Positions 1,481 through 61,101 of a stretch of 64,000 nucleotides of DNA are shown here, in pieces. This DNA comes from Heliocidaris erythrogramma (taxonomy: Eukaryota; Echinodermata; Echinoidea; Camarodonta; Echinometridae). The notes under the pieces were generated by a model. It was not told where the DNA came from and searched no databases. It saw only the letters and a list, made by a program, of their open reading frames with translations. Both the position numbers and the translations under genes were made by a program. Positions within the stretch are counted from its first letter, which is position 1. Every line of letters begins with the position of its first letter. The DNA is taken from contig CM046857.1 in assembly GCA_025617745.1 (NCBI GenBank), positions 23,963,761 through 24,027,760 on the forward strand. Reading direction: 5' to 3'.

Positions 1481-4400
1481 GTGACGTAACTTATTCAAAG
1501 GTTTTCGGTAAGCTGTCGAATGGATATTATATTGTGTGCCGAATACATGAAACTAGAATTGCTTATTAGTAAAAGGGCACCAAGGCGAAACAAATACATA
1601 GCATTGACTTTAAAGTATTATACTTAAGGTGATATAATCCTCTGTTTCCATGTACACTGGCATTGCGTCATAATTCGCGGACACAGGATTCTGTGGAATT
1701 GTCAATTTTGTTGTTGTTATTGATCAGGTTTTTACAGACGTGTATCAATCAAATATGATTATTTAATAGGCAAAAAATGGATTCAGAATTTATTGGAAGG
1801 GCCAAAATAATGGAGTTCGTATGCAATTCATGTTAATTTTTGGTAACACTATGAATGTATTCTACTTGGTCCCAGTAATCAGAAAAATTATGCCACTTTT
1901 TATGTTGACCTTTAGTGACCTTAAAGTGTGCCAATCACCAAAAGAAATAATTTGTGTACAGGTAGAATGTAACAAACCAACCTCAAAACAATTTACCTGG
2001 CCTTCTATGAGTTAACGGTTAAGGAGTATGAAGGAAATGAAGGAAAACATAAAACTTTCTCGCGCGGAACCAACTCCGAGTTCGGTTCTGCGATGGCCAT
2101 TTGATGCGAGCGCTTACGGATGCGCCGACTAGTCTCCTCACAAGTCGCTGTTTTGAAATCACAATGACAATTGTGAGTGTAAACCACTTTGCATGTTCCA
2201 AGATGTAAATCTGGATGTATTCTGACTTGAATTTGGCAAAACTTACAGCTTTTACACATTTTGAGGTAGAAACTAAGGCCTATTTTATTCGAGAACAATC
2301 AAGTTGGTGGTAAAACTACCCCCTCTTCAGGAATCTGCCCCTTCTGCGACCAAAAAAATAAACTAAAAAAAAAAATGCCCTTCCAGGTGAATAAAGGACT
2401 GTCCCTCTGTGATACAAAGGCCCCCATAGATGTAAGATTATCGCTTCTTTATCTGTTTTGTATGCATTCTATTATCACTATCTATCTTACAAGAAAGGAT
2501 GGTTTTAGTTACCAGAACTTTGCCCTTATCGGCCAGTCACATTAAATCATAGGAAGAAGAAATATGGTACAGAGGGGAAACGGCAGAATGGAAGGGGGTA
2601 ATTTCCATGTCAGAAAGGGGTACTTTCTCTGTCGCGGGAGGGGCCAGGCATCAGAAGATTGCATTTACAACGGGTAAAAAGATATAATAGTTATTTCCTG
2701 AAAAAAATCATTCCCAGCCTGTTGCCATGCAACCTCGCAATAAAAATCTTTGTCAACCAAATATGTCTTAAAGTTACGGAATAATTGGACAATCAACTGA
2801 AGGAAATGGGCATGATGGGCAAGTGATTATTAACGTCTGTATCTCCTAGTTAATGAAGCCCAATACTTTAATAATGTGATAAAGGACCGTGCAAAGAGAA
2901 CTAACAGACTTCCTATAAAGAAAGCTTCCTAATCAAGCTACATCATGGTCATCAGCTAAACTCTTTTTTTCTTGTAAAAAGTTTACTCGCTTTGCTCATA
3001 ATTATTGCTTACTCGCAAATAGCTAACCAGCTTTTTGCCAGCCTATTGTATCCAGGAAGATGATAATACTGTAATTATATCCTTATATAATTATTTCAAA
3101 ACAGTAAGCCATAGAAATAATACATTCATCAAAAGGAGGAGGGTGGTTCAGGTTGTCATAAAAAGTGATTTCATGACGGTATATATATATCTCTTCCACA
3201 ACTTATTTATTTACTTTGGATAAAAGAAAGGTCTGCCACCCCTGAGAGGCATTAATTCTTGATTGTAACAAGATTGGAGTGCTCCTCTAAAAAAGGCACA
3301 CACAATTTATACTTTATACTTATATGTACAGGTAATTTACTTGTATGATGCAGACTGTATGTTGATTATGATGTATCTCATCAGGTTATTTACATAAATT
3401 TGCATATCACGAACATCTGAGAGGTCTATCAACAAAACAATTGTCATGCATCTATTTCATCTATCTTTATTGAAAGTGAAATTGATTGTAAATTGCTACA
3501 TTGTGATACCAAGGTCGATATAGTTTGAAGGAAGTATAGTCAAGATAATGACCTTTGACATTTGACCTTGGATTTAAGGTCACTAAAGGTCAACATAAAA
3601 ACATTATGATTAGTGGGACGAATTAGAATACATTCATAATGGTTGCCAAAAATTTACATAAACTGCACTTCAAACTACATATGACCCCTACACTGTAAAA
3701 ACTGAAGTGCTGTATATAGCACTTTTGAGGGCATGCATAGGGACTGCACTCAGAGTGCTATTGTAATGCACACAGCGTGCTATTTCAGCACTTTCACGGG
3801 AGCTGGACCGGCTCCTTAAACTGCTAAACATTCATTTGAAAGAAATCGTGATTTTGGCGAGCCTCGAACCAGGGTCTGCTGATCGAGAATTGCTGGCATT
3901 ACCGCTAGACTAACTCACATCGTACGATTTAGAGCAGATCATATTGTTACATAGTGAATTTACGACACCACATAGTTCATGTTATCTACTTGACTCCCAT
4001 GACTAAACTGGATTGCAAGAAGCATTCGTTAGTCTATCGGTAACGTCAGCGCCTCTCAATCAGCCGAACCTGCTTCGAGGCTCGCAACGGTCACATTTTT
4101 TTTTGCTGGTAAATTAGCACACTACAAGTGCTAAAACAGCACTTCAGGTGCAGTCACTATACATGGCCCTAAGGGCCTAAAAGTAGCACTTCTGTTTTTA
4201 CAGTGTACTAATTTGTTTAACTAGTATATTTTAGTTCGTTCTGTTTTTTTTTAAATATTCTTCAGCTGTTGTGCACTATCTTGTTTAGGGAGTGGGGGGG
4301 GGGGGGGGGGGGTAGGCTAATGTTGTTGGTTTTCAGAATGTGCAGTATTTATGTGAGAGTGTTTCTTTTTTTTTTAGAATGAGATTAATATTTCATTATC

Positions 4401-7400
4401 TTCGTCTATCCTTTTTTTTCTGTAAGGGGATGCATCGGTCAGCACATCGTTTGATATGTGGGGTACGTGGGGTTCAGAGGAAAGAAAATACACCAATGCA
4501 GACCTGATCCACGCTGTACAACCACATGCCAAAATCATAATGATCGTGAGAGATCCAGTACAGAGGTATATAAATGACTGTGTGTACTAACACTTTGGGA
4601 TAATTATAACCCCCTCCCCGTTTCTTTTCGGAACAATTGCCTCGTCGGACCGTTACCTCTTTCAGTGTTGTCCGCATGATAATTGTCCTAATTTAGTCAC
4701 TGCCCTTGGGTTAGTTGTCAGAAGTTGCTATCAGGAAGGTAGTTAATTCATGAGGTAACTCTCTTAGTCCTCTGGTAGTTCCCTGTGTGGTAGATGTACT
4801 TGGGGGTATTCACCAATGGTATATTATAGTGTGGTTGTTTGGGGATGTTTTTTTTCTTCTTGGAAGTAGGTGTCCGGGTGTAACAGACCGGTGTAGATAT
4901 ATAGGGGAAGTACTCCTGGAGGTAGATTTGTTGGGGGTCTGGTTTTTCCGAAGATTCGAACATGTATTTCCGAATTGTTCTTGTTTTTGTTTTTTTCATG
5001 TCTATGCAATATATTTCTTTATAGATGTACCTACATGTATTGTGGATGTGCCTATTAATTTTGTAGAAGACTAGGTAATTCATCCCTTTCGTGGACTTGC
5101 ACAAAATTACGCGACATCGTGTAGATACTGTCTATGAAATGTCAATGTCACAATTTCTATAACCCCTCTGTCTGTCATGTTTGTAAGAAATGAAAATCTT
5201 GCCGCAGAGGGAGCTATTCAGATATCAACGCAAGTAAATGTACAAATGTACAAGTAACAGTCCAACAAGTAGCTATAGGCCTACATATGGGCTGTGAAAT
5301 GCTAAAACGTTAACAACAACAACAACAACAACAACAAAAAAGGCATTTTCAAGTTGAATAAGGCGCTAGATCAATGACGTGCACGAACGCGCGCTTGAGC
5401 GGAAAATTTTAAAATGTTCAAAATCTACTGGAACATTGGATGATTTCACGCTCGGTGTTGGTGTTTGGTGTTGGTGTTTAGAGCGAAATTCTCATTTCAT
5501 GACTTTTGTATTGTAAATGCTGATTAGAGCTCATCCTGGTAAATGATGTGGATTCTCTGGGTCTTTAACTACGGAATATCTGACGTCATATTTATCAAAT
5601 CTATCTTTAAAAAAAATAAGTAGGATTTTTTATTCACTCCTTCAGCCCAATTAAACAGCAAAAGTAGTTCCTATCCGTGTGCTCTAGATCGAACGATAAA
5701 CCAAATGTTGGCCTAGATCTAATTTCTGGCCTATATGAACATAATACATCTTAAAACCTGTGAAATTACACTTCGAATGAAGCCTACTGTCTTCATTTCT
5801 CATGACTAATCAGCAAAATTTCCCATAGCTAGCAACACCAACACCGACCGTGAAATCGATATTTCTTAATCCCTTTGGCCCGTATTCTGAACTCCGCTTT
5901 AACTTAAACCATGGTCTAAATGTGTGGTTTAACTATGGGCAGCCAAATGTGACACAGATCTCTAACAGTAGATACTCAATTTATCAGCATTTTTTATCGT
6001 GGTTTTTATCGTGGTGTCCAACACACTCGGCTTGCGCCTCGTGCGTATAGTACACCACGATAAAAACCTTTGTGTTGCCAGATCGCACCAACGCACTCCC
6101 AACCATGTTTAATAGTATAATAACCCATGTTCACTCTATTTTAGTCCATTTAGGCATTTTCAATGTTAACTCGCGCATGCACGTACCTGCACCTAAGCTC
6201 GCGTCAAAGAAAAAATTCTAAACAATGCTTAGTAGGCGATGATACAGAATTAATTAAACTGCTCAAAAAGTAAAATAAGAAAAAAAAAAAAGAGAAAAAA
6301 AGAATAGTCATTTATATGCTGTATAAGGCACTCAGGACATTGACAAGCGCCTACGGGAGCACGCGTGATTTTTTTTTCTCCATGAAAACTTCATCACCAC
6401 ACATGTTCAACGTATGTCCATGGGCTGTTTCTACTAGTATTCAATATACTTTTGTATTTATGTTCATGATTCTGAAAAACAAATTTCCCATACAAGAGGT
6501 TTCATAATTACTCTGAAGGTTCGTTATTTCTAAGCTTCGTTTATCTGAAGGTTCATAATTCTGAGAATGAAATAGGGTTTGTAATTCCGAAAATGAATTT
6601 GCGTTCATGATAGGTTCATAATTCCAAAAATGTGAGACAACCCTAGATTTTTTTTTCGGAATTACGAACCTACGGAATAATGAACCTTCTGAGCAAACGA
6701 ACCTTCGGAAATACGAACCTTTGGAGTAAAGAACCATTGGAATTATGAACCTTCGGAAAAGCGACTTTTAACCGATTTTTCGTGGGGTAATGGCCCTCGG
6801 AGATAAGTTGAGCGGAGTGAGAGTACAGAGGGGTTGTCCTTGGGGTATTTTTTCCAGGGGGTGCGGGTAAAGCCCGCATTGCTCAACCTACATGCTTTTT
6901 ACAAATTATCTGTTGTACAAATCATTCCCATTCTCTTCTTGTTATTCATTGTTTCAGATTCTTCTCTTCTTTCAACTACAACGGTAAAAGCCGCGATAAG
7001 AGTTTGGTTACATTTGACAAAGTCGTCCATGATGCAACTCACTGCTTCACACGGTGTCTTCAGAAATATTCAGAGAGATTTTGTATATTCACAAAACAGT
7101 GCGTAAGTTAACCGTAGAACTTTCTTTTGTGCAGTCTCGCTGATGTTGAATAATGTATTTTATGTGCTTGTAAAAACACCACAAGTTGTCCATGCTTTGC
7201 ACCTTTCAATAAACCTACGTTGAGGAATTTTGTTTGCTTGTGTGATTTATAGGCATATCACTTTTCCTACTTACAGACGTTGAATATATTCGGTCTAATC
7301 CTTATTATAACGTTATTTTTGACCACATCAAGTGTACATTAGTGCAACTCCATTTTTTTTTTTTTTTTTTTTTTTGGGGGGGGGGGGGGGTTTAAACCCT

Positions 7401-10956: not shown

Positions 10957-11210
10957 TAAGAATATCAGATGCCCGAGTCATATTTATTTGATAAAATTAC
11001 GAGTTACGATAACATTGTTATTAGCAACTGAAATAAGAGCGCGTGGTGGGTTGTTGACGTATTTGATTCTTTGTTATTTCAAACATTTTCATATATCATA
11101 GAACGGTAGCATCGGAAGTTATAAGATGGAGACTGCACACCACAGATTTGTCCTACAGAAATGGTGTAATGCTTCTATATATGTTTTTTAGGCATGGAAC
11201 CTAGATGGAA

Positions 11211-14112
11211 CATCAACTCGGAGATACTAATTATCTTTGGAAAGGACTAATTCGAAGAGATTCCATGTAGCCGCTTTTAAATTGTTGCCATATAAAGATT
11301 CATTAGAATAATTATTGGTTGCAAAGTGCACAGCTGTTTTTCAAGTGATATGTTTTAATTTCCAAACTGCAATAGTATACACACACACACAAACACACAC
11401 ACTCAACAACCTCTTGTCTCATAAACACACATTGCGCCTCTTTCTTTCTCTCATAGCCGTCCACATAAAATTATTTCGAACAATTTAGGCCGTAGAACCG
11501 ATTCTCATTATACACTTAAATGTATCCCCAGACGTTTTGTTTATGTTGTATTAGCTCATATATCCGATGTCTCATTGATTCAAATAATTGGTTTTCAACT
11601 TCTTTTTCCTATTTTGTGTGAATACCACATCCGAATGATGCATTAAGACTAAAGAGACCAGTGGTGATATTCTGAGATTCATTTTCTTGATTTTAGTGAA
11701 AGGACTTTAATTGTCATAACAAAATGTTCACTTATGTGGCATCATTGGTTGATGTAGGAATAAGACATCTGTGAAAGACATCTGTGCAAACACGAATGAA
11801 ATGTTGCAATTTAAAATTAAAAAATCTTTCACTAAAAACAAGAATTCTCAAAATACCACCCAGGCACTTTAGAAAAAGGGTGAACTCGATCATCAAGTAA
11901 CAAAATTATGAAATTTTTCTAAATGAGGAAGCAAAAATTGAAGATATATACCTTTAAACGAATAAGTAATAACTGCTGTATGATTAAAGATAAACGCATA
12001 AGACAACGATTGAAAGTAATAAAATACAACGTAGTCTGTTCACATGTTTTGCAAAGTAGTCTATATTTGAACAATAAATTGGAGCATAATTCCTTCACCC
12101 TCCACAAGTAGAAACGATTTTGAAATATCTAAAGCATTATTAACGAGTATTTTCAGCCCATGCTGTGAGACGCACAATATGTTTTGTTTACCCAGGGAAG
12201 CCACATCAATAATAAAATACAAATGTAATAAAACTAATGCATCAAAATGATCGCAAGAAACACATATACGAGTGTTCAATTATCCACCTTCTATTATCAG
12301 GACACTGCAAGGAAAGCTCCTGCAGCTGGAAGCCGGATCGAACGGCGCGGGGCGTACATGGTAAACATCCAAATTTCGCTCATCGGATCAGATTCATGAC
12401 TTGTATTGCGCATGTTGATTTAGAAGTCATCCTAATTATTAATATAAATTCTCTAGGTCTTTACTACGGTTAATCTAATGTCTTATTCATAAAATATGTA
12501 TTAAAGGAATATTAGGTAGGATATTTCATTGACTCATTCAGCCCCGATAAAAGGCAAAAGTAGTTCCATCTCATTAATGGTGGTCTAGGTCTAAAGTTGC
12601 GCTTGTATGAGCGTACTTCATAATGCCTGTAAAATTTTGATTTACTCCTATTTCTCGACTTACCACATTGATTTCCTATATCTAATAACACCAACACCAA
12701 TAGTGAAATGAACATTTCTTAATCCCTATGGGTATAGGGTTACTTTATAATGTAAAGCTAAGTTTGAAAAAATCGGAACAAAGAGAAGTCCAGAAGACAA
12801 TTTCCAATAAACCCTTTCTAAAATTCGGCAATAATCTACATCTTGCTGTATACATAAACTTTATGAAAAGAGAAGTTTTGTATGATATTCATGTCGTTTA
12901 TAGTTCGATCAATTCCACTGCTCTTGCACAGCTGCTATGTTGTTCATTCACACTGCAAAATAAAGAGGATAGTTCAATAGAGATTAAATACATGTATTGC
13001 CTAGATGGGGCAGGAGACAAACTAAATGATCTTTAGATAGTGACATCCAAATGACCTACATATTGAAGGACATACTGACCAAAAACCGCCTGGATTGAAA
13101 ACAGATGTCTTACTCTTGCAGTAGTAACACAAATATGTACGTCTGGATCAAGATAACTAACCCTAAAGCTATCCCCAGCCCCTCCGACAATTAATCCCTG
13201 TCGAAAATCACCCCGACAACCACGCCTTTACCATCCATCCAGTAAGTTATCACCTGGGTTGATATGATTGCCCATGGACATCTTCCTCTATCGTTGAGGC
13301 AAATAACACAACACCCCCGACCACTACCCTATTTCCAGATGGCACATCTACATCCCAGGACAATCCCCATCCCTTTCCTATGGCAATAATATTCTGGACA
13401 TTGAATCACCATAGCAAATACCTTGTTGATACTACCCTATTTTTAAGGCATACTTGTTTTGGGATCAGACTGACATAAAATAAAAAGGTAGTGTAAGTGA
13501 TAGACTGCCTCCAAAGATTGTTTGAATCTGGCTATTATCAGCCTTGCGCCAGAAGGTTCTTAATAAATGTTGACAGGATACCAGCTTGAGAGATTTTTGT
13601 GGCACACGATAACCTAACTTTATTCCTGGACCTACTGTATTAAAGGGAAATGCCGCCCTATATAATGGCAAGTTGCTCTGAAAGAAAGATTTAAAAAATC
13701 ACAGAAGCAGATTGGTGAAAGTTCGAACGAAATCGGACAAGGAATAAAACAATTTTGGAAAGTTTCTTAAATCACTATACATATGGAATTTCAAAATTGG
13801 CCGAATCTATAATGTAACTGATGTGGTTGCGGACAACTTCCCCAATTGCTTTAACACACAAAAATGTATCAGTCCGTAGGATCCTAATAATAATATGCTT
13901 TCTACAATATATTATGAGTACTGCCCCGGGGGAAAAGGCGCTTAGAAACAGCTAATTAATGATATCGTGTATGACAAGCAGGAGAGTTGACCACCAAAAC
14001 GTCACAATCCACTCACCAAGTTGCCAATTTGAGATTTGCATAGATTTAGTGATCTCATTTTTTAACCATCCATAAATTCTTCATCCATCTTCTTGTCTGA
14101 TTTATTTCAAAC
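11211..14112 (+). repeat. segmental duplication, copy A
   Basis: It matches 61102-64000 in the same orientation almost base for base (I estimate well above 90 percent), with a few small indels. It extends beyond copy B's visible end. To the left, homology resumes at 10549-10606 and 9430-9528 after skipping 604 bp that carry the sulfotransferase terminal exon and the 9529-10548 retroelement. Confidence 0.9.
14101..14106 (-). terminator. candidate polyadenylation signal of the discoidin gene
   Basis: AATAAA on the - strand lies about 52 bases after the proposed stop codon at 14158-14160. The matching position in copy B reads differently (the hexamer is lost), just before the window ends. Confidence 0.4.
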
Positions 14113-26200: not shown

Positions 26201-29200
26201 GAATATCTTTTAGTCGATAAACAAACATGAACCTAAAATATGACATCGTCATTATGTTTGTACATACCTGCTACTTGGTTGAGTCTTGCCCTGTCAACAC
26301 AGTGATTTGCATTAAAACATGTGCTTGAAGAGAGTTGGCCGTCTGCGATTCGACCATCTTCCATTCCAAGTTTCAGTGGCTCAAACCGATGACCTGATGG
26401 TAAATCGTATCAATAGTAGCAACAATGGGGACACGGAAATAACATTAAAGATAATTATTGAGAATGAAACAGGTGGGTTATTTGGACCAGCATATCAAAA
26501 ACAAAATCATAATATTAACTCATTTTCCCACATGGTGATGCGAGGGGGTCGGGATAGACAACTAGATGTCATTATTCTTCTTCTCTTATACCTTTTATAC
26601 CAAATATATTTGGCAGCTATCACCATTTGTAGTCTTGAAAATTCAGGATACCATAATTTCAGATTATGTTGAGTTTGTATAAATACTTATATCCCAAGAT
26701 AACATTTAACAGTAATCCACACCATTGTCATAAATATAACCCAGATGTGCCGTTTTTTTACTGGAATCTTTCAGTAGTTTAAGTGAAATTCCGTATTTAT
26801 CACATAAACAAAATAGAAGCCCACGGGCACTGGAACTTTGAAATACATTTCTTGGATAAAACATGCACGTTTCTCAAAGTCGCGTATCAAATAAACTTCA
26901 GTACCATTTTGGGCACTGCATGGATTCACATATTTATATGGGTTTCAACTCTCCTTGGAATAAGTAAACTGATGCCTCTTTTTGTTTCCCTTTTTTTTTC
27001 GTAAAATAGTATTTCCTATCTTTTGTAAAGGATGGCCCAAGTCCAAGACTTGGGTCAGTTTTACATTCATGTCATAGCGCCCTCTCATCGCTCCTTGTCT
27101 AACCTTATTATACCTGATTCAGTACCAATCACTATGAACCTGACGAACAAAGAAGCGGACAATTTATGCAGCTCCTCATTGTACCCTTCACAATTGCACT
27201 GGTTAACAAAAGAATATCCATTCTTTGCTATCCTGTAAAAATATGTAGAACAGGTGTCACATAATAGCAGTGAAGGGATGTCCTTTTGTCTACTAGAGCT
27301 ATTGTGGAGGGTACAATGAGCTGCATAAATTGTCCGCTCTTTGTCATCGTGTTCATAGTGAATAGAGCACTCCTCAAATGCAATATTGTGAATAATACAG
27401 ACGTATTGGGGCCTGGGGGCATCATCTGGTATGGTTCATGTTTTCAGTGCGCATGGATTGATTGATTGATTGATTGTTAAAAGTTTAACGACACTATCAA
27501 CACAACAGTGTCATATAAGTGTCTGACATTAATAGATACAAAGTTAAACATTTCATTAAAACGTTAAACTTTACATAAAAATTTTGACTGATGTTATACA
27601 TGTATATGAAAGTCTTAAGTTCTGAAATTCAGATCACAATGATTGGTAATGTATACACTTTATTCAATGTCCAAGTGGACTAGCATCAATAATTTATATT
27701 CAGTTCGTATAGATCATAAAATAGTATAAAAGATTTTCTTTCCACCAAGGACTTCCTTCTCAAGTAGATCCCCGAGTTACTGAGTTACTAGCCAACTGGG
27801 CGAGAGCTAGAACCTAGCCACTCCCAATGACTAGCCGAGAAGGATCAGACACCAACCACCGACCATCGTGATAAAACACCACCACGTATATGATCTGTTG
27901 TGGGAGGAGTGAGAGTCCAACCGATGACCTACAGCAGATGAGTATCCACCATAGGCCCCAGCACCCGGTTCACTTATAACATTTTCCTTTGTAAAACAGA
28001 GTGCATGTTTTAAGCTTTCATTTTGTTCAAGTTTAATATCCATAGTACATAAAATTCCATGAGTAGAAATACTTTAAAAAGGACTTAAAAAACAAATGAT
28101 ATTTGTGTATGCAATTAACTTTCTTTTGGATGTTTTGGACGAACTTTCTGTATGGTAGATGGTACGGATCCCCTACCCCATCTAATGTGCCATCTTATCG
28201 GCTCTTACAAGGTATGTTATGTGTATAGCTAATCAGGGACTTAAGGCCCCCTAAGATAACTCAAGCACGGACCAGAGGTCGTCCACTCTACCCAACATAC
28301 TCGATCGTTGTCTTAAGGAAGACATTGACGTTTAAAAAGAATCAAAAAGATGCAATTTGAAATACCATAAGTTTTCCCTCGTACAGAGTACTCATGAATA
28401 ATATTACCATGTTAAAAGTATTACATATTGTGTATGTATTGGGTTGCATTGCCCTTTTTTAATAAATGTTCGATTTGAGATAAACATGCATATATTAACA
28501 TTGTTTTACTTAAAATAAACTTCCAGCTTTTCAAAAATGCATAAAAAGTTTAATCTCTTTAAGATATTCTATTATATTTGATTAAGGAATATCTCTGAAT
28601 AATGTCTTCAAGTCGGAAACTTGTAAAATCAGCACTGATTTTCTTATTTACTATATAAATCTATATACCTACCTATTATGCCTGTAGTCTTGACTACGGG
28701 ACCCCTTCGAGAATTATCACACATGTGTCACAATATTGTGCGCACCCCCCGTAATCCTATTGTCCCCTTCGCCACTCACGCGCGTCAATACGCTACGGCC
28801 ATCTTCCTCTTGCGAGCAACCCCAAGAAGAAACATGTTGCTTGCAAGGAGCGGGGAAGGAGGGAGGGTCATAGGTAGGTATATAGATTTATATAGTAAAT
28901 AAGAAAATCAGTGCTGATTTTACAAATTTACTGCAATAAATCATATATACCTACCTATTATGCCAGACCAGCGCCAACTCAAAGACCGGGAGGCATGTTT
29001 CGAGCGGAAGGAAATAGGATTACACCAAAGACTACAAAGAAGACACAGCGGCCTTCAAGGTGGCTGACGCAAACAAAGCTTCACCTGCGGGAATATCCCT
29101 AAGGTAGCAAGAAATGAAGGAATTGGGCGAACGCCAATAAGCAGCCTTCAAAATATCAACAAGCGCCACACCTTGAAACAGAGCCCAAGAAGTGCTGACA

Positions 29201-32200
29201 CTACGAGTATCATGAGCACGAGGCTTACTGTCGGATAAAAGAGCCTCTGTGCCAGCGGCCCTAATAGCTTCAACGATCCATCTAGAAATGGAATCAAGAG
29301 AGGCAGGAGAAAAAGGCTCTCTAGTGATCAGGAACAACTGATCATCCTTACGATAAGACTTAGTCTTATCAATATACCATTTGAGAGCCCTAACAGGACA
29401 CCAAACTTTGTCCTCACGCACCGAAGAAAAGTCAGAAAGCGGACAAAGAAAAATCTCAACAGGACCGGAGGTAGCTGTCTGATTCTTGGCAACGAAAGAA
29501 GCCCTAGGAATCAACCTAACACCTTTTCTCTCCCAGCGAACATGACCAGGAGTAAGACAGAGAGCATGAAGAGTACTGCGCCTCTGCCCAGAGGCAATAG
29601 CTACCAAAAAGAGCGTCTTAACCGTAAGATGATGAAGCGAAGCTTCACCTAACGGTTCAAAAGGAGGTTTCGCCAAGGCCTCCAGGACCTTAGGCAGACT
29701 CCAAGACGGCACTAACTTAGAAAACGAAGGTCGTTTCAGAAAGAACGAACGAATCAAACCACTTAGCAGCGGGGAATTGGAAATCCCCGAACCATCCGAA
29801 AAACCCGAATGAATGGCCCCGATCGCCGAACGGTAGCCTCGGATAGTAGAAATAGATCTCCCTTTGTCAAATAACGAGATTAAGAAATCCGCAATTGAAC
29901 CAATAGGAGCCTTAGAAGGGGTTTGATTTCTCTCTTTGCACCAAAGGAAAAAGACCGAGAGACGGGAATTGTAAATTTCCCTAGTAGAGACCCTACGACT
30001 GGACATTAAAAAGTCCGCGGCTCTATCAGAGAGACCCGACTGTCTTGCAGATTCCCTGACAGGGGCCAAGCAGTCAAATGAAGAGACTCCGGATTGTGGT
30101 GAAGAATCCCCGATTAGGGGCTGTAACACCAGATCCGCTCTTAACGGGAGAACTAACGGTTGAGCCCTTAGAAGGCTCATAAGTTCCGGAAACCAATTCC
30201 TCCTGGGCCAAAAGGGAGCTATTACAAGCACCCTCGCCCGATCTTCCCTGATTTTCCGCAAGGCACGCGGAATCAATTGGAAGGGAGGAAAGGCGAATCC
30301 CTGAAGGTTCTCCCAGCTGAGGGAGAAAGCATCGAGAGCCCATGCTCCCTGATCGCGAACACGGGAGCAATACTTCGGCAGCTGGTGATTTAGCACCGAC
30401 GCAAATAGATCCACTTCCAGTGGACCTAGGCAACTGCGAATGCGGCAAAATACCTCCGGATGGAGCATCCATTCCGATGGAAGATACCTGCCCGGGACAG
30501 AAAATCCGCAATGAGGTTTTCCCGACCGGGGATGAAAGAGGCCACGGGTGTGATTGCCATGCGACGACACCACCTCCACAGCTGAGCTGCTAGGGCATTC
30601 AGGGCAACCGAACGAGTGCCTCCCTGCCGATTGATATATGCCGCCACAGTAACATTGTCCGTGAGAATCAGAACCGAACGACTGAGAAGTCGACTTCTGA
30701 AATGGAGCAAGGTCAACAGAACTGCCATAAACTCCAGGACATTGATATGAGGAAGAGTCCCAAGATGAGACCAATCCCCCGCAACCGTGCTGCCGTTGCA
30801 GTGTCCTCCCCACCCCAACCGAGAGGCGTCCGTCGAAACCGATATCGACGGAAGAGGGGCAGAGAAGGACCTGCCTCGCGCGAGAAACACCTCGCTCGTC
30901 CAACAAGCGAGAAGAGACTTGATCTTTACTGGTACTGGAATCCAGACCAAAAGAGAGTCTTTTCCCGGCTTTAAGAACCTGAGGAGATGTCTCTGAAAGG
31001 GTCTCATGAGGAGCCGACAGTCCTCTAAAACATCGACTAGACTGGCTAGATAACCTAGAAACTGAAGCCACTGTCTGGCCGAGACTCTTCTGGCCAGCAA
31101 GAGCTTGCGAGCCGCAGAGACAATGGTGAGAATCCTGTCTCGACTGGGCCGAGCTAACTGATTCCTTATGTCTAACACCGCCCCCAGAAAAACTGGGCTG
31201 CGAGTGGGGACTAACTCTGACTTTTCCAAATTTATTAGGAAACCTAAGTCTTGAGTAAGAGAGACTAGCAACGAGTCTCGTCCAACAAACGATCGCGCGA
31301 CTCCGCAAGGAGAAGCCAATCGTCCAGGTAACAGAACAACCGCAGGCCGCGACGCCTCAGAAAGGCCGCTAGCACCGCTACAACTTGAGTAAAAACCCGA
31401 GGGGCCGGGCGCAGCCCGAAGGGAAGAGCCCGAAACCGGTAAGTCTCCGAGAGGAAGGAGAACCCCAGAAGATCGCGAGATGCGCGATGAATGGGAATGT
31501 GAAAGTACGCGTCCTTGAGATCTATCGAGACCGCGTAATCTTAGCTTTTGATCAACGGAAGAATGGAGGCAAGAGTCTCCATACAAAAATGAACCGGAGG
31601 AATAAATTTGTTTATCCTCTTTAGGTTCAGTATCAAACGAAGTTTTCCCGAGCGCCTGGGAATAACAAAAGTCGGAGAAAGGGAAAAAGGACAGCCTGTG
31701 AGGTGTCCAAGTTCCTATAGCACCTCCGGGGAGCGGGGCGGACAGATCTATGAAGAAACCGTCTCGTCCGCCCGCTGCCTGAACCCAAGCAAAGTCGAAC
31801 CCTGCGCGCGGGTTGACTAAAAGTCAGGGAAAGTTTAGAACAAAGCAATCGCTTCTACCCCACAAAGGGAGAGCAACTAAGGCTCTGCCTGCCCCAGCGA
31901 TTCGGAGACCGAAGCTAGAGAGGCCGCTTCCAAAACTGGATCCGCCTGAAAAGATCGTGACAAAGAATCACGAACAAAGGCCGAAACGGTCGGATTCACG
32001 CATGAACCGCCATAAGCCTCCTCACCCGACGGAGCCCCGAGGCTGCGAGACTAGGAGGCTCATGTGATCTCATCACAGACAAAGAATAAACCATAAAAGG
32101 CTAATTAGTCTCGATGTCCGACCCAAAAAAGGGACAAGAGCAGGGGATGTGAATCCTGGTACAAGGAACCAACCCTGAGTCTGGGCAAAGCCCATCTCAC

Positions 32201-35200
32201 ACTGAACATCTCAGCTTGAGAGACCGAAGGGTTAGCTAAACCCGATGGGCAAGAGGCAGACAAAGCCTTGCCTCTTTTAGCCCCTTCCCTAGGCTTCTGA
32301 TTGGCCCAAAAAGAGCCTAAGTCGAAACCCGCTTTTCAGAGCGTTTATCCGTTTCGTTCGGATCCCCGAAGCCCTTCGGGAACACGAACCGAACCCTCCA
32401 CTGAGGGACGCTCACCTCCCTTTATGGGAGAAGTGCGCTGAGGGTATTGAACCCAAAGACGCGCACCAATTACCCATATCGGCCGAGCAAGGGGATGCAA
32501 CAGCCATGGGCCGGACGCCAAGGCGCCCAGACTCAGCAGAAATCCCGCTGCTTAAACCAACGCGAAGTCGAACCCTGCGCGCGGGTTGACTGAACTTCAG
32601 GGCGATATTTGGACAAGAAAACAATCGCTTCCACTCCACAGAGATTGAGCGATTGAGACTCCGCCTGCCCAAGCGATTCGGGAACCGAAGCTTGAGAGGA
32701 CGCATCCAAATCTGGTTCCACCCGAGTGGAATGAGACAAAGGAACGTTAACAAAGGCCTCCGCAGGCGGGTCCCCGCATGGCTCACCAACAGTCTCCTCG
32801 CCCGGCGGAGCCCCAAGGGCCGCGGGAGTAGGAGGCACATGCGAATCAGTCTCAGACAAAGAGGAATCAAACACAAAAGGTTGATTAGTCTCAAAGTCAG
32901 ACCCCTGAATAGGGACAGAAGTCAGGGTTGAAGTAGCCGGTACAAAGGACCAACCCTGATTCTGAGCAAAAGCCCGCATCATGCTGAACATGTCAGCTTG
33001 AGAGGAGCTAGCTGGGTTAGCCAGGCCAGACGGGCAAGAGGCCGGCAAAGCCTTGCCACTTTTTGCCTTCTTCTTGGCCTTTTTCTTGGCTGGCTCGACA
33101 AGAGTCGTAGCCGAAACCCTTTTGTTAGAACGCTTAATCGGATTCATTCGGATCTCCGAAGCCACTTCGGAAACACGAACCGATCCCTCCGCGGAGGGAC
33201 GTTCACTTCCCAAAAAGGGATTGGAGCGCTCATGGCGTAAGCCTAGAGAATCGCCCAAATCACCCATATTGGCTAAGCAAGAGGATGCAGTAGCCATGGG
33301 TTGGGAGCTAAAAGCTCCCAGTGCGTGGGCAGACCGAGATGACTCGGTATGTGCCCGATGACTACTAAAGGCATGTGAACCCACTATTGGACCGCTCGAA
33401 AGCGGCAATAGGGGAGTACTAGTAGTCACGCACTCAGGTGAAAACACCTGTTGCTCCAAAGAGCGTCCATAATTGTTAGCTCGAGCATTCCCATCAGCTG
33501 GCAACTGAGACAGCCCAGAAAGTACTCGTTCCCCCATATGGCGTTTGCCGGGGGCTAGGGTTTGTGAACCCAGACCAACATTGTTAGCTCGAGCATTCCC
33601 ATTAGCTGGCAACTAAGACAGCCCAGAAAGTACTCGTTCCCCCATATGGCGTTTGCCGGGGGCTAGGGTTTGAGAACCCAGACCAACATGGACTAAGCCC
33701 GTGGGTTGCCCTGCAGTAGTGGGGCGCGTCTCCCCTAACGGATCAGAGCGAGTGAACGCTACCGTACGGGAAACAACAGCCCCCCCCCCCCCCCCCCCCC
33801 CTGGTCTCAGCGACCGGGGGATTGGATTCGAGATATCCAAACCACTAGAATCTGACGTCACCCACCCCGAAACCACAGGCTTCGGAGTTGACAATCCCGA
33901 TTCAGTTAACGCCACCCGTCCCGAAGCCGCAAGCTCCGAAACTGGCAAACTCTGCAAGGGAACACCACTAGGCAACTTACCTTTAGCCCTCCTCCCTCCC
34001 CCGCGTACCGCTGTACTCGGGGAAGTTCTGGAAGGCCGAGTCGTCTTGCTAGATAACTCTTCGGAAGAAGCAGGTCTCCTTGACCCAGCTGCTTCTTCTT
34101 CCGAATTCATACCACTGCAATAAAACAGACAATAAAGTATACTTTTCAAAATAAGAAAAACTTCAACTGCATGCAGTAAATAAAACTAAAGTTTATTTGG
34201 GAGATACGCACTAAAGAAATTTTCACAGCCTAAAAACCGTAAGAACAAACACCGAACCCGAAGGCTCGGTGACAAATGGAAACACCCGCAAACACGGAAA
34301 TATCTACGTGGGGCTGACCGTGAAAGAGAAAAATAAATGCCAAGAAAGGGAATCAAAAAATCCCTTGCAATTGGCAAGAGTGACTACTAAAACACAAAGT
34401 ACTATAATCTAAACGAATATAGGTACCTAAAAGTGCTTTAACTATGTGAAAAAGCGCACCAAAAAGATACTATACGACCTGATTTCAGGAGCGCTGTGAC
34501 TATACGTCCTAACTCGTCGGGGGCGAGCAAGAAAGAGGAAGATGGCCGTAGCGTATTGACGCGCGTGAGTGGCGAAGGGGACAATAGGATTACGGGGGGT
34601 GCGCACAATATTGTGACACATGTGTGATAATTCTCGAAGGGGTCCCGTAGTCAAGACTACAGGCATAATAGGTAGGTATATATGATTTATTGCAGTAAAT
34701 AGTATAGTACTTGGTTCGAATTGGAGAAAAATCAACACAATCAAGAAGAATGTGTTTAACTGTGAGTGGGCAGTTACACGGTATACAGTTAGGTGGGTTT
34801 TCAGCTTTAAGTAAATATGATTGTGTTAAATATGTATGACCAATACGAGCCCCTGGTCAAAACAATGTCCTCTCTCCGGCGAGACAATGGAGATGTGTGG
34901 CGAGGTTCAATGGAAGGTTGAAGTTGATAGAGTTTATTCTTGGGATGAGAGTTCCATAATGCTTGCCATTTCTTTTTAATGTAACTGTTGATCTTTGTTC
35001 TTAAATCACTGCAAGGAATGTGGGTATTTGTAATATCCTCATTTAAAGCTTCTCTTGCCAACCTATCTGCAGTTTCATTACCTTTAATACCTGTATGAAT
35101 TGGAATCCAAGCAAAAATTACACTTTTCCCCATAGCATTTATCTTAAACTGTGTTTTTAATAATTGACTAACATATGGGTGTTTATGACATCTTCCCTGT

Positions 35201-38200
35201 ATTGCTGTTAAGCTCGACAGGGAATCTGTAAAAATGATGAAACGCTGTTCATCGCAGATTTCTATAATATCAAAAGCTATCCCTAGGGCCACTAACTCGG
35301 CAGAAAATATAGATGAACTATCTGGCAATCTTATTTGTACTTGCAACGAACTGCTTGTAGCTGCTGCACCTACTTTATTTTGGTACTTTGACCCATCTGT
35401 ATAAATAGCACGATAGTTACAATATTTATTCTTAAGTTCAAAAAATGCATTTTGGATCAGTGCGCATGGAGTCATTAAAGTATGTTTTGAATTTGAGTAA
35501 AAACAAGTGCTGCAGTGCTGATTGGAAAGGAAATGATTTTTACGATTGCTGGTCATACATGTAGTTTGCATATGGTGCAGTAGTACGTGTACATGCAAGA
35601 GTAAAAAGATAATGTTGACTCGTGTGTGTGTGTGTCCTCGGAAGCCGGACAATAGTCCTCGAACGTCGAACAATGAATTTGTGCTTTATTCCGTCGACTG
35701 TCCGAGGACGAGTAACAATAGAGGAACAATAGTTATCCTCGGAAGTAAAGCCATGTAAACCTGTGTGTTAGAGAGAGAGAGGGTGTGTTTGTGTGTCATT
35801 TTTGGATGCAAGACACATAGTGTCCTCATTTAACACACACACAATCCCATAAATTAACATGCGAGGTGACGAGGGACATTGTGCCGTAGTATAAGCAACC
35901 TACGATTTGTAAGCCATACTGATTAAAAGCTGAAAAAAATAACTATTATGAATTCTTTTTAGAACCCTACTAGAGTAGCTTACTCTGTATATGATTTTTT
36001 TAAAAACCCCACAAGTAACGTGGACGTAATTATGATATCAATGAACATTTAACCCTTTGACTACTGAATTCTTTTAACTCTCATAGGCTTAATACAGGAG
36101 CAACCCGGTTCCCATAGTATATGGGTTAAACCTGTATTTACGATGTTTCCTTACCATCATAGTCAAATATAATCATGTTATTGGACAAATAAAAAATATA
36201 AAGTGTTTTAGTTTACTCGAAATGACCTGCCATGGACTTGGGGCGTTTTTATATTTAGATACTCAAACACTTTACTTGAAAATGCATTAATATTTGTTGT
36301 TATGTTGTTATTAGTTTGTAAAATATGTTTGAAGAAAAAAGAGATAAAGAAAAAATGCATACATAAACAAATTTCCAAAAAAGATTATAAAACTATCATG
36401 AGAGGTTTTATCTATGATTTTAAAAGGTGTCAATTCTAACTTACTGGCCACGGCTCCCTTTCCAAGAATCTCAAGTCTCATACTGATGTGACCATTCCAA
36501 GCGGTGGGGTGAATGCGTAGGAAACGGCCAGTGATTGGCCGAGTAAACACTGTTGTCACCTTGCTATTGCGATCCGTGTTTCCGGTGAAAGCCTATTGAC
36601 GAAAAAAGGGTTCACAATGTTTGGTTCCTCTTGAAATATTATTGTAGTAAAAGCACTCAAACAACTTATACCAGTTTAAAAAAAAAAAAAATTTATGACC
36701 ATTAAACCATGGTAATTTATTCCAGTCTTGCTTATCAGCAGAGCGAGTAACTATACCTTATCATTTCCACTGCAATCCTGAATGGTGTTCCAGTTGATTC
36801 CATCATCACTGTAGGCTACTTTGAAGGCTGTTACCCACTGGTTGATATCCTGTCGACCCTGCGTGATGACTCCGGTTATAATGTAGAAGCTGTTCAGGTC
36901 CACCTGCAACCACTGGTTGACATTATTTGTGAGTGCTGACCACGCACCCTTTCTACCACCACCTGTTATTGTAAAGGATTACCGGTAATAGCATTGCTCA
37001 ATGTTCATAAGATGACCATGCGCTTCAACCACCACCGACTGTCATACAACCATGACAACTACAGGAGTATTAAAGGCATTAAAGGGAGTGGCAAGTCGTA
37101 ATCCATGGGCCTGACCAGTTGGCCTGACTCGGGGAAATTCGGATACAATCAGGTCCAATCGTGCGCTACCGAAGGAATGTTATTGCCGAATTCCTCGCGT
37201 GATCGTTAACTCGAATCCCTACATACGTAACCGACCAATGAGATTCAAATACTGGAACAAAGAACGAGCGATCTTGTTTACTCAAATTTGGGTCAATGTG
37301 CGAACTTTTATTAGCTGTGCGCGATTGAAGTCGCTTTGATCCAGAGAAAGGAGCAGCCAACTGTAAAACCGCCCACTGATTGCGACTTGTCGCTCCCTTT
37401 AAGGTATGAGCTCACCACACCCCTTTTCTACCTTAACCGTTGTAAAATCACGGGAGATTGTTGGTATCATGCTGTTTTCCTAGAAACATGGTAGCCTACA
37501 TGTAGTTACACGAGTATTATACCATTTATTTGTATGGACTAACCACCGCCCTTTCTAACCACCATCTGTAATAAATCAAAGGAGTAAAATGCATTACTTC
37601 TGAACTGACAATACTCATATATAGCTACCACCGTCGATTGGTGTGAGCTGACCATACCCCTTTTCGATCCTACCATTTACCCGTTAGAAAATTCACAGAA
37701 CAGCATTATGGGTATGGACAAGCTAATACACTTTTTTAAAAGGCAAGTACCTCTTCAAATCAAAGGTAAAATTCAAACACTTTTTAGTTGTCTGCATAAA
37801 ACACAACTTACTAGCAACAGTGTCTAGACGAGATCGTTCTGCTCCATGGTTAGCATCATACTCAGATGAGGCTGTGATAGCACTGTCTGGAATTTGGCCC
37901 TTTTTCATACCGAGATCTTTCTGGGGGCCTTCAATCTCTGTAGGGGGAAAGGAGAAATTAAAGTATGATATATACTCTGGCATTATTAATGTAATGATTC
38001 AAGTCACTACACAGATTTGTGTGCATGCTGATGGGTCCATATTTCTCTCTTGGGTAGAGTAGAGAAAAAAATATACCATACAATGTGACATAATATGGTG
38101 TGAATCTGGATCAATTATTCTTCACCTGGATTATCCACAACTACAGATATCGCCACCTTTATGTTAAAGCATTATCTTTATCATGACTTAAGGATAGAAT

Positions 38201-48269: not shown

Positions 48270-49266
48270 CTCGCTAGTCATAAGGACCGCTAATCATAAC
48301 GTGTAATTTCCTATACCTATAGGGTCGCTATTCATAAAGCGAAAAGGGGATCACTATTCATAAACTCATAAGGAGCATTATTCATGAGGATTGCTATTCA
48401 TAATAGGAGAAGAGGGTTGCTATTCATAATCGAAGAGAAGGGTCATTACTCATAAGGGCCGCTATTCATAATAAGTCATAAGGGTCGCTATACATAATAC
48501 AGATACAGGGTCGCAATTCATAATACCAAATCGGGGTCGTTAATCATAAGGGTGGCTACTCATAATCGAAGAAAAGGGTCGCTATTCATAATAGAAGAAG
48601 AGGGTCGTTATTCATAAAGGTCAATATTCATAAGGGTTGCTATTCATAATCGGAGAAGAAGGTCGCTATTCATAATCAGAGAAGAGGGTCGCTATTCATA
48701 ATCAGAGAAGAGGGTCGCTATTCATAATCGAAGAAGAGGGTCGCTATTCATAATCAGAGAAGAGGGTCGCTATTCATAATCGAAGAAGAGGATCGCTATT
48801 CATAATCAAAGAAGAGGGTCGCTATTCATAATCAAAGAAGAGGGTCGCTATTCATAATCAAAGAAGAGGGTCGCTATTCATAATAGGAGAAGAGGGTCGT
48901 TATTCATAAAGGTCAATATTCATAAGGGTTGCTATTCATAATTGGAGAAGAGGGTGGCTATTCATAATCGAAGAAGAGGGTCGCTATTCATAATCGAAGA
49001 AGAGGGTCGCTATTCATAATCAAAGAAGAGGGTCGCTATTCATAATCAAAGAAGAGGGTCGCTATTCATAATCAGAGAAGAGGGTCGCTATTCATAATCA
49101 AAGAAGAGGGTCGCTATTCATAATCGGAGAAGAGGGTCGCTATTCATAATCGGAGAAGAGGGTCGCTATTCATAATCAGAGAAGAGGGTCGCTATTCATA
49201 ATCAGAGAAGAGGGTCGCTATTCATAATGGAAGAAAAGGGTTGCTATTCATATTCGAAGAAGAGGT
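48270..49266 (+). repeat. 26-bp minisatellite, array 1
   Basis: Units of the type TCATAATCAAAGAAGAGGGT + CGCTAT are regular from about 48640 to 49266 (about two dozen copies with A/G variants at a few positions). From 48270 to 48640 units are shorter and degenerate. The same unit in reverse complement makes array 2 at 56283-57280. Confidence 0.93.
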
Positions 49267-49439
49267 AAGGGTTAGGATTATTTGTAAAATATTGTAATAT
49301 GATTTTCATTGTTCAAATATGAAAGAATATGAAAGATTTAATGAGACACACCCCACGGCTGTGTCGAAGAAATACGGGAGGGGCCATGAAACCAATACAC
49401 CCCTGGCCTAGCCAGGCGGGAAAAGTGGGGGGCATGCCC

Positions 49440-55263: not shown

Positions 55264-56282
55264 AGGATCACGATTGATCAACATGGTCATAATTTTTGTC
55301 ATGATTTTTGTTAAATTTATGATAAGGAAGACCGAAATAAGGATTTAAAATAATATAATGAAATTAAGCAAGTTAGTAATTACCATGAAACCACATGGAC
55401 TCAAATGCTCTGAAAGGTGATTTTAACTCGGGGAAATTTGAAAGTCCCAACCGTGGGAGGGGATACTTCATTCCCATCCATGCCCGTAAACAGGGGCACA
55501 CTGTAAGAACGGTAGATGCCAATGAATTGTACGTTACTAAAATCACGTATTATGAAAATACTACTACCCCACCCCAAAATATACACAAATTAAAACAAAA
55601 ACAAAATTTCTCGCGGCAATTTCTAAGCCCGTATCCGGACAACTACCCCCAACAACTAATCTCCAGGACAACTACCAAAGACAATCCCACCCCCCCCCCC
55701 TCAGCTCCCCCAAATGGACGATTGCTGGAACTTGAGATAAAGGCTAAGGATTAGGACTGAGAAACGGGAAGATCTGGATGATTCAATGATTCATTTATTG
55801 TCATGCAACAAGCATTTCCAAACATAAAAATACATATCAGGAAAATTGCATTAAGAATAAACAGGCATGACAATATAATACCTCATTATTCCATGATAAA
55901 TCTACATAAACAGTATACAAAAGGAAATAGAGTACAAGCAAGAGGTCCATGTCTTGCAATAAACCATGCAGAAACAAAGAAACAAGAAGCTGGAAAAAGA
56001 AGGAAAGAGAAAGAGAGAGTGAGAAAAGGAGGAAAAAGAAAAAAAAAGAAAGAACGAAAATGGGTAGGCCTACAAACATAGGTAAAATAGATAACCAGTA
56101 CTTCCCCTAACTCTAAAACAGGTGTGGCAATGACACTCCAATATTCAAAACAAAGAACATGTCTGCGTGTGTGTGGGTGTGTGGAGAGGGAGGGGGTCCT
56201 CTCCTCCCACGTAGATGTAAGGATTAGACATCGTTTTTTAATTATTAAGGCACTGGCAAAGCGCCTTTCAAAGTGAAAAGAC
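55264..56282. other. intergenic, no gene seen
   Basis: It contains a short ACAACTACC-type cluster at about 55635-55675 that is inverted relative to GGTAGTTGTC units at 52800-52845, a C run at 55689, and a purine-rich stretch at 55985-56055. The frames at 55395-55754 and 55803-56081 are low-complexity translations. Confidence 0.5.
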
Positions 56283-57280
56283 GACCCTCTTCTTTGATTA
56301 TGAATAGCGACCCTCTTCTTTGATTATGAATAGCGACCCTCTTCTTTGATTATGAATAGCGACCCTCTTCTTTGATTATGAATAGCGACCCTCTTCTTTG
56401 ATTATGAATAGCGACCCTCTTCTTTGATTATGAATAGCGACCCTCTTCTTTGATTATGAATAGCGACCCTCTTCTTTGATTATGAATAGCGACCCTCTTC
56501 TTTGATTATGAATAGCGACCCTCTTCTTTGATTATGAATAGCGACCCTCTTCTTTGATTATGAATAGCGACCCTCTTCTTTGATTATGAATAGCGACCCT
56601 CTTCTTTGATTATGAATAGCGACCCTCTTCTTTGATTATGAATAGCGACCCTCTTCTTTGATTATGAATAGCGACCCTCTTCTTTGATTATGAATAGCGA
56701 CCCTCTTCTTCGATTATGAATAGCGACCCTCTTCTTCGATTATGAATAGCGACCCTCTTCTTCGATTATGAATAACGACCCTCTTCTTCGATTATGAATA
56801 GCGACCCTCTTCTTCGATTATGAATAGCGACCCTCTTCTTCGATTATGAATAGCGACCCTCTTCTTTGATTATGAATAGCGACCCTCTTCTTTGATTATG
56901 AATAGCGACCCTCTTCTTTGATTATGAATAGCGACCCTCTTCTTCGATTATGAATACCGACCCTATTCTTCGATTATGAATAGCGACCCTATTCTGCTAT
57001 TATGAATAGCGACCCTTATGAACATTGACCTTTATGAATACCGACCTTTATGAATATCGACCTTTATGAATAGTGACCCTGTTTTCGTATTATGAATAGG
57101 GACCCTTATGATTAACGACACTGATTTGGTATTATGAATAGCGACCGTCTTTCCGTATTATGAATAGCGATCCTTATGTCTTATTAGGAATGGCGGTCCT
57201 TATGAATAATTACCCTTATGAATAGCAACCCTTATGTCTCATTATGAACAGCGGTCCTTATGACTAGCGAGCGGACCCCA
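56283..57280 (-). repeat. 26-bp minisatellite, array 2 (inverted relative to array 1)
   Basis: ACCCTCTTCTTTGATTATGA + ATAGCG is repeated about 27 times almost without change from 56284 to about 56985. Shorter degenerate units follow to about 57280. Read on the - strand it has the same order as array 1: degenerate end first (CTCGCTAGTCATAAGGACCG in both), homogeneous core last. Confidence 0.94.
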
Positions 57281-61097: not shown

Positions 61098-61101
61098 AAA
61101 C

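Follow-up and report, generated by a model that had tools for sequence, protein, structure and literature searches.

The window analysed here (the whole stretch of 64,000 nucleotides, positions 23,963,761 to 24,027,760 of contig CM046857.1 in assembly GCA_025617745.1 of the sea urchin Heliocidaris erythrogramma) contains, at 28621-34700, an element of 6,080 bp with its coding strand on minus. Almost certainly it is a DIRS1-like retrotransposon of the tyrosine-recombinase type that belongs to an abundant family and, within it, to a mosaic and probably non-autonomous subfamily. Its limits were set by the match of an internal complementary region (ICR) to the tips and by the ends of sister copies; 28621 and 34700 are the same as the ends of 17 of these, in agreement with the span proposed in an earlier note that was made from the letters alone. 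As that note had it, the two tips differ. In window orientation the left tip (28621-28675, the 3' end of the element, delimited by repeat search and letter-by-letter alignment) has an outer stretch of about 25 bases, the right extension (rE), which the other tip does not have, and small gaps in the inverted terminal repeats (ITRs) add to the difference. The left ITR occupies 28646-28811 (A 26-191 of the ITR alignment) and the right ITR 34533-34700 (B 1-168), the latter ending ...GCAGTAAAT at the 5' start of the element. Aligned, they gave 165 identities, no mismatches and 4 gap positions, and the repeat search of the window returned the terminal repeats as the inverted pair 28662-28830/34514-34682 (169 nt, 95% ungapped).

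The ICR, at 28871-28964, is a copy of the circle junction. Read as its reverse complement, all 94 of its bases are those of the right tip (34662-34700, 39/39) directly adjoined by those of the left tip (28621-28675, 55/55), with the next inward tip base, 28676, lying outside the match. This exact composite, which had been reported by eye, was recovered both letter by letter and by self-alignment of the window (inverted pairs 28617-28676/28870-28929, 60 nt, 98%, and 28926-28964/34662-34700, 39 nt, 100%), and it is far beyond chance. The junction predicted from it is ...GCAGTAAAT|TTGTAAAATC.... The ICR was identical in 21 of 21 copies including the window, in a sample chosen as best matches to the left end plus ICR. 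Along 1,499 bases of the tyrosine recombinase (YR) region, a copy interrupted by L030 is 91% like the window, and it has an identical tip and ICR, so that, in this one case, tips and ICR have been held fixed while the coding sequence drifted.

Insertion joins in the genomic family

The 1.064-Gb genome carries more than 2,000 copies of the element, and this makes the circle-junction model testable. The family was searched for with the 344-nt left end as query (the 94-nt ICR alone returned none), giving 40 full-length places, the window and 39 others at 99%, as the best 40 of 1,687 candidates. Exact genome matches numbered 5,018 for a 20-mer of the right tip, which is present both at that tip and in the ICR, and 2,251 for a 45-mer across the ICR junction; the 45-mer itself requires AAAT, and its count says nothing on the frequency of altered ICR junctions. 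The copies L001-L050 are the best matches to the left end including the ICR rather than an unbiased sample, and the core triplets lay outside the query. Aligned differences from L035 ranged from 0.34% to 2.27% among the two-ended sister copies, values which understate the divergence of the family because the copies were best matches, and reached 3.89% for the window, which carries a diverged segment.

Both ends were present in 17 of 20 fetched copies, which with the window makes 18 two-ended copies; L040, L046 and L048 had no right end within 9 kb, even by a relaxed tip search without the core, and are outside this count. In all 18 the right end is GCAGTAAAT followed by varied sequence, and the left end starts TTGT after varied sequence. 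The exact right-end search in the 20 fetched copies included AAAT, whereas the relaxed search and the genome-wide open patterns described below did not. Empty homologous sites were found for five (L047, L045, L034, L039 and L031) of the seven flank pairs tried from the 18 available; L043 gave none and L050 was left out as an empty string. At all five the left and right flanks directly adjoin, with no duplication and no loss, and uninterrupted target triplets TAA (L047, L034) and GAT (L031) were seen. The L018/L047 locus (G000:C3, about 49.94 Mb) is a DIRS copy in locally repeated sequence, with the neighbouring unit as empty site.

When the flanks of the window copy were joined, a minus-strand frame was open across the join (...CVDFSPIRTKYYT|VSDLKTLFRDIP, then a stop), and the target triplet at the left end (AAC, 28618-28620, identified by comparison of copy ends and from this frame) forms a V codon in it. 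The stretch across the join looks like the end of a LINE protein. The flank adjoining the element encodes RNase H (E 2.3e-12), and the 3' part of a degenerate LINE-like element, at 34701-35685 and just below 28620, seemingly hosts the insertion. Since the empty sites and the frame across the joined flanks of the window copy continue uninterrupted, the left-hand triplet belongs to the target and the right-hand AAAT to the element.

The ends were counted genome-wide with patterns in which the core was left open and intact ICRs were excluded via one distant base. AAAT was read at 2,005 of 2,090 right ends, and AAT preceded 676 of 1,999 left ends, a denominator that includes some altered ICRs. The first 100 listed ends of each kind all lie on one contig (C1); after one ICR-like row was dropped from the right ends and repeated flanks, likely segmental duplications, were merged, 96 of 97 unique right ends had AAAT and 29 of 95 unique left ends were preceded by AAT. 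Pairing of these ends by coordinates, in which mispairing is possible within clusters and one right end serves two left ends, gave 53 unique pairs. A non-AAT target triplet was present in 34 of them, and in all 34 the triplet was on the left and AAAT on the right. Among the 18 two-ended copies, 13 were non-AAT at the left and all of these had AAAT at the right, the other five having AAT on both sides. Seven further right ends, obtained from nine stretches of which two had no right tip, were all AAAT, and in four of the seven the left was not AAT. Thus, in two-ended copies with a non-AAT triplet, target bases were on the left and element bases on the right in 51 of 51 cases, and in none was this order reversed. 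This excludes an equal segregation of mismatched overlaps (p = 1.4e-14 against 50:50 for the first 47 pairs).

Target preference

Flank statistics were taken from C1 only and compared with the local background. On the left, T was preferred at -10 (59/95), G at -9 (33/95), A at -4 (53/95), -3 (63/95) and -2 (89/95), and T at -1 (49/95, with A 35, C 8 and G 3). On the right, T was preferred at +1 (51/97, with A 25, C 16 and G 5), and there was little preference further out. Left of the join these preferred bases match, position by position, the right tip of the element itself, and at +1 its left tip; at two positions, A at -6 (50/95) and A at -11 (48/95), the target preference differs from the right tip. 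From this base composition it looks as if the recombinase accepts the left side of the target in place of the right-tip arm. Since neither -1 nor +1 is invariant, a rule of 3-bp identity between junction and target can only be a preference here.

Possible mechanism of integration

The explanation that we think best, and to which we would give even chances as a whole, is an exchange by the recombinase that is passed on by one strand, perhaps an integron-like exchange of single-stranded cDNA, with one-sidedness arising because only the cDNA (antisense) strand is exchanged. When integron cassettes are inserted (attC x attI), one-strand exchange gives one-sided joins, and a folded single strand can be the substrate. 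The likeness would be one of outcome only, with no attC-like recognition code or recombinase kinship in evidence here.

For the DIRS element such an exchange might run as follows. The inherited ICR would act as template and splint and would join the cDNA tips as ...GCAGTAAAT|TTGTAAAATC..., as in the published model. The recombinase would align the right-tip arm with a half-site of similar sequence in the target, where T is preferred at -10, A from -4 to -2 and either T or A at -1. By the simplest chemistry leading to this product, it would then cut one strand of each partner just 3' of the arm, the strands being joined crosswise such that the free TTGT end is attached to the target arm and the downstream side of the target to AAAT. 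The exchanged strand would be plus in window orientation, that is, the antisense, first-strand cDNA. With a single-stranded circle as donor, either folded or paired with the ICR, one exchange would leave the element as a one-strand loop in the target, which replication would make double-stranded, as for integron cassettes. The more specific proposal, that a single-stranded cDNA circle is inserted by one-strand exchange and that the ICR is both the splint and the second strand which makes the junction a usable recombination site on a molecule that is single-stranded elsewhere, leaving the junction strand as the only one open to productive exchange, we put forward tentatively, at rather less than even chances. 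If it is true, DIRS integration would be the counterpart in eukaryotes to the insertion of integron cassettes, and the role of the ICR as second strand would explain both the one-sided joins and the exact ICR-tip match.

The 94-nt junction strand, taken as single-stranded DNA, has a predicted folding energy of -21.5 kcal/mol (z -8.6); alternatively, it could pair with the ICR over 94 bases. Several points weigh against one-strand exchange. The folding of the 94 nt follows from ITR tips that lie head to head and need not be used, and the inner 40 nt of the junction fold near chance (z -1.65; 14 of 200 shuffles were as good). AAAT is not found at 85 of the 2,090 right ends, which may reflect later mutation; one listed end, which enters no pair, reads AAAC. 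A single-sequence AlphaFold model of the recombinase reached a pLDDT of 35, and its fold could thus not be modelled. In our tally of Table 3 of PMC3266345, AcasDIRS1 keeps the junction triplet at its 3' end, the opposite polarity; it and AmDIRS1 are the two elements described there with a left extension only. Finally, genome sequence does not reveal the strand that was exchanged or the single- or double-stranded state of the circle, and directional mismatch repair would produce identical joins.

It is this last process that furnishes the main rival. An ordinary two-strand exchange, with a double-stranded circle as partner and a short overlap whose mismatches are always repaired toward one strand, for instance because reverse transcription has left nicks in the other, seems to us possible but, on balance, doubtful. 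Known tyrosine recombinases make a staggered cut of 6-8 bp, which counts for it, as does the bias towards AAAT, the circle sequence, in the bases left of the join, which homology within an overlap would produce. However, the repair would have to run one way in 51 of 51 cases, and the target bases that immediately flank the join vary on either side, no stretch being identical in all sites. In the published model (PMC3266345) the 3-bp junction recombines with a genomic triplet identical to it. Two observations agree with this: AAT occurs more often than any other target triplet (29/95 on C1 and 676/1,999 genome-wide), and no duplication is made. Against it, roughly two in three left ends lack AAT, and uninterrupted empty sites have TAA (L047, L034) or GAT (L031). 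As a strict rule for the family here it is contradicted, and as a full account of the joins very unlikely; it stands as a preference. Insertion without the recombinase, in which linear cDNA is taken up at chromosome breaks through end-joining or homology repair, would fit a product that looks blunt and lacks a target duplication. Yet almost every copy is joined at the same base, where scattered ends and deletions would be expected, and the target motif is strong (A at -2 in 89 of 95), which leaves this route highly improbable.

The one-sidedness finds a parallel in published end triplets. Table 3 of PMC3266345 covers 28 elements. By our own tally, the triplets at both ends equal the complement of the junction in 18 of them, two have a 2-bp junction, and seven of the eight elements with unequal ends keep the junction triplet at the 5' start, as here. 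The section of that paper on end triplets carries no comment on sidedness, and in literature on DIRS circle junctions, circular intermediates, insertion sites and integron-like exchange, a search with key specialist papers outside it, no report of one-sided core inheritance was found. With more than 2,000 copies in the genome, a model that had been read off a few sequences has become a countable test, with one base step, a half-site target and one-sided inheritance, and the questions of one or two strands and of single- or double-stranded cDNA are now directly testable for DIRS elements.

Relation to known elements

The DIRS-type identity given in the earlier note was supported by the ITRs, the ICR on the circle junction, the reverse transcriptase (RT), the recombinase motifs, the lack of a target-site duplication and the overlap of pol and YR. 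The hallmarks of DIRS1-like elements set out in PMC3266345 are ITRs, an ICR overlapping on the circle junction, an HSTR recombinase motif and no target duplication. We assign the element to this class because its layout, ITRs, ICR, pol/YR overlap and absence of target duplication fit that description. It shares the junction AAT with AcaDIRS1-2, LgDIRS1, LgDIRS3 and SkoDIRS1, and is like the elements described in the same source in having rE at the 3' end, a 5' start ATT and a size near 6 kb; pol/YR overlap is given there for half of the 28 DIRS1-like elements. Unlike that description, strict 3-bp target identity was not seen here, and the one-sided core inheritance, counted on about 2000 ends of each kind, and a mosaic subfamily without the end of gag and the start of pol go beyond it. 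The element itself is of known kind; what the genome-wide data set does is to sharpen the integration model.

Two other groups with tyrosine recombinases were considered and rejected. Ngaro/PAT elements would be expected to have split direct repeats, whereas the termini and ICR here are inverted, and Cryptons would be expected to be without RT, whereas RVT_1 was found in the element. A related-locus search confirmed no relatives in viral and bacterial/archaeal contigs.

In the account of DIRS-1 of Dictyostelium in PMC5633606, the ICR is the template for a missing terminal repeat, as here. That element is described as inserting into existing DIRS-1 copies with no apparent sequence preference, unlike the insertion into varied DNA with a half-site preference found here. 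It is also described as centromeric, and regional clustering was seen in the present genome: between 42.6 and 46.6 Mb of G000:C1 lie 53 of the 99 listed right ends (against 6.5 expected, the right ends listed being those in the first 61 Mb of C1) and 39 of the 100 listed left ends (against 5.8), which suggests that this 4-Mb cluster is centromere-like.

Coding regions and overlapping frames

The tyrosine recombinase region of the window copy (29032-30189, minus strand) has 385 open codons, with GQRRS at 29575-29589, HDTR at 29203-29214 and CYLRD at 29095-29109, so that HDTR, which corresponds to the HSTR motif of PMC3266345, and a later Y follow in order along the frame. It lies within an open YR frame of 774 aa (29035-31356, minus strand) that overlaps the RT/RNase H frame. 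The matched stretch was free of stops at 107 of 107 scored genome places including the window (the best 107 of 11,603 candidates), and the description of the recombinase as apparently intact holds in this respect. It is tentatively assigned as a tyrosine recombinase from its motifs and from Pfam matches, below the cut-off (E 0.13 and 0.14), to the SAM-like N-terminal domain found in tyrosine integrases. NCBIfam had nothing above cut-off for it, PDB had no credible sequence match, and Pfam had no match to the whole YR frame of L042.

Part of the RT domain, including YLDD, is present at 31265-31540 on the minus strand (RVT_1, E 1e-13, profile 69-166 of 205) and is interrupted by a stop and frame breaks. 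The remaining pol frame (30429-31823, minus strand, 465 aa) includes an RNase H region; RNase H matches were sub-threshold (E 0.08, for RT_RNaseH in the window, and 0.21). For the methyltransferase domain that follows RNase H in DIRS1-like elements, no Pfam model matched the window element or the pol of L042. The earlier note had suggested looking for genomic copies with an open RT, and these exist: the pol of L042 contains the whole domain (RVT_1, E 8.1e-21, profile 1-203 of 205), and some sister copies show the complete arrangement of three open reading frames, L043 for example with 777, 721 and 974 codons counted between stops. In the window copy the gag region (32536-34185, minus strand) is broken into two frames, 33616-34185 and 32536-33612, and contains a 108-bp tandem duplication at 33467-33682 (95%).

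Over the 721 codons of pol, the YR frame has 1, 1, 1 and 0 stops in L042, L043, L044 and L050, where synonymous shuffles gave about 34; in the other shifted frame there were 49-50 stops. Between L042 and L044, five of 27 differences alter both proteins, whereas 48% of all possible changes would do so (p = 0.0014), and the corresponding values were 4 of 26 for L042 and L050 and 2 of 8 for L042 and L043. Since the YR frame stays open and changes to both proteins are depleted, the overlap of about 2 kb is probably read in both frames; a long pol/YR overlap as such is already known (PMC3266345).

In L042, L043 and L044, gag and YR are in one frame with a single TGA between them. Across the copies L032-L050, 19 in all, the place was found in 14, of which 11 have TGA, two CGA and one TGT. 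The first Met of the L042 YR frame is codon 496, with none in the first 495 codons. Read-through of the TGA between gag and YR is possible.

The mosaic subfamily

In coding orientation the window copy matches L035 over 1-2038 and 3112-6192. Between these, the end of gag and about the first 157 codons of pol are replaced by a second, diverged gag-region segment (31785-32510, minus strand) that is 75% alike to the gag region of L035, and the replaced stretch stops just before the RT domain. This segment was found at 40 places, the window and 39 others at 99% (the best 40 of 1,402 candidates). The mosaic structure spans L060 end to end at 98.6%, and a 34-mer of the mosaic junction has 241 exact genome matches, compared with 518 for a 32-mer from the region absent in the mosaic.

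The window copy had been described as having a decayed RT, and the broken domain could in principle have decayed in the usual way within one insertion. As DNA the RT domain persists, and its in-frame stop and two other breaks in pol are private to the window when compared with L060; to this extent the description was right. Two further frame breaks in pol are shared with L060, however, and the loss of the end of gag and the start of pol is subfamily-wide. The sharing of the whole structure with L060, the 39 further places of the diagnostic segment and the 241 matches of the junction 34-mer make decay of one insertion an unlikely explanation. They argue for an amplified, inherited mosaic, to which, judging from these alignments, the window copy belongs, with private decay on top. 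The 40 scored places are spread over many contigs, which also counts against mere segmental duplication of one insertion. The subfamily, almost certainly, keeps the cis sites (tips and ICR) and the recombinase and is without the end of gag and the start of pol, and it is probably served in trans by full copies.

Other features of the window

Two tandem arrays with a 26-bp unit lie in opposite orientation about 7-8 kb apart, at 48366-49314 and 56126-57262, and are 92-95% complementary in their longest pairs. The window also contains a direct duplication, 11198-13698 and 61099-63601, whose copies are about 49.9 kb apart and share blocks that are 92-99% identical.

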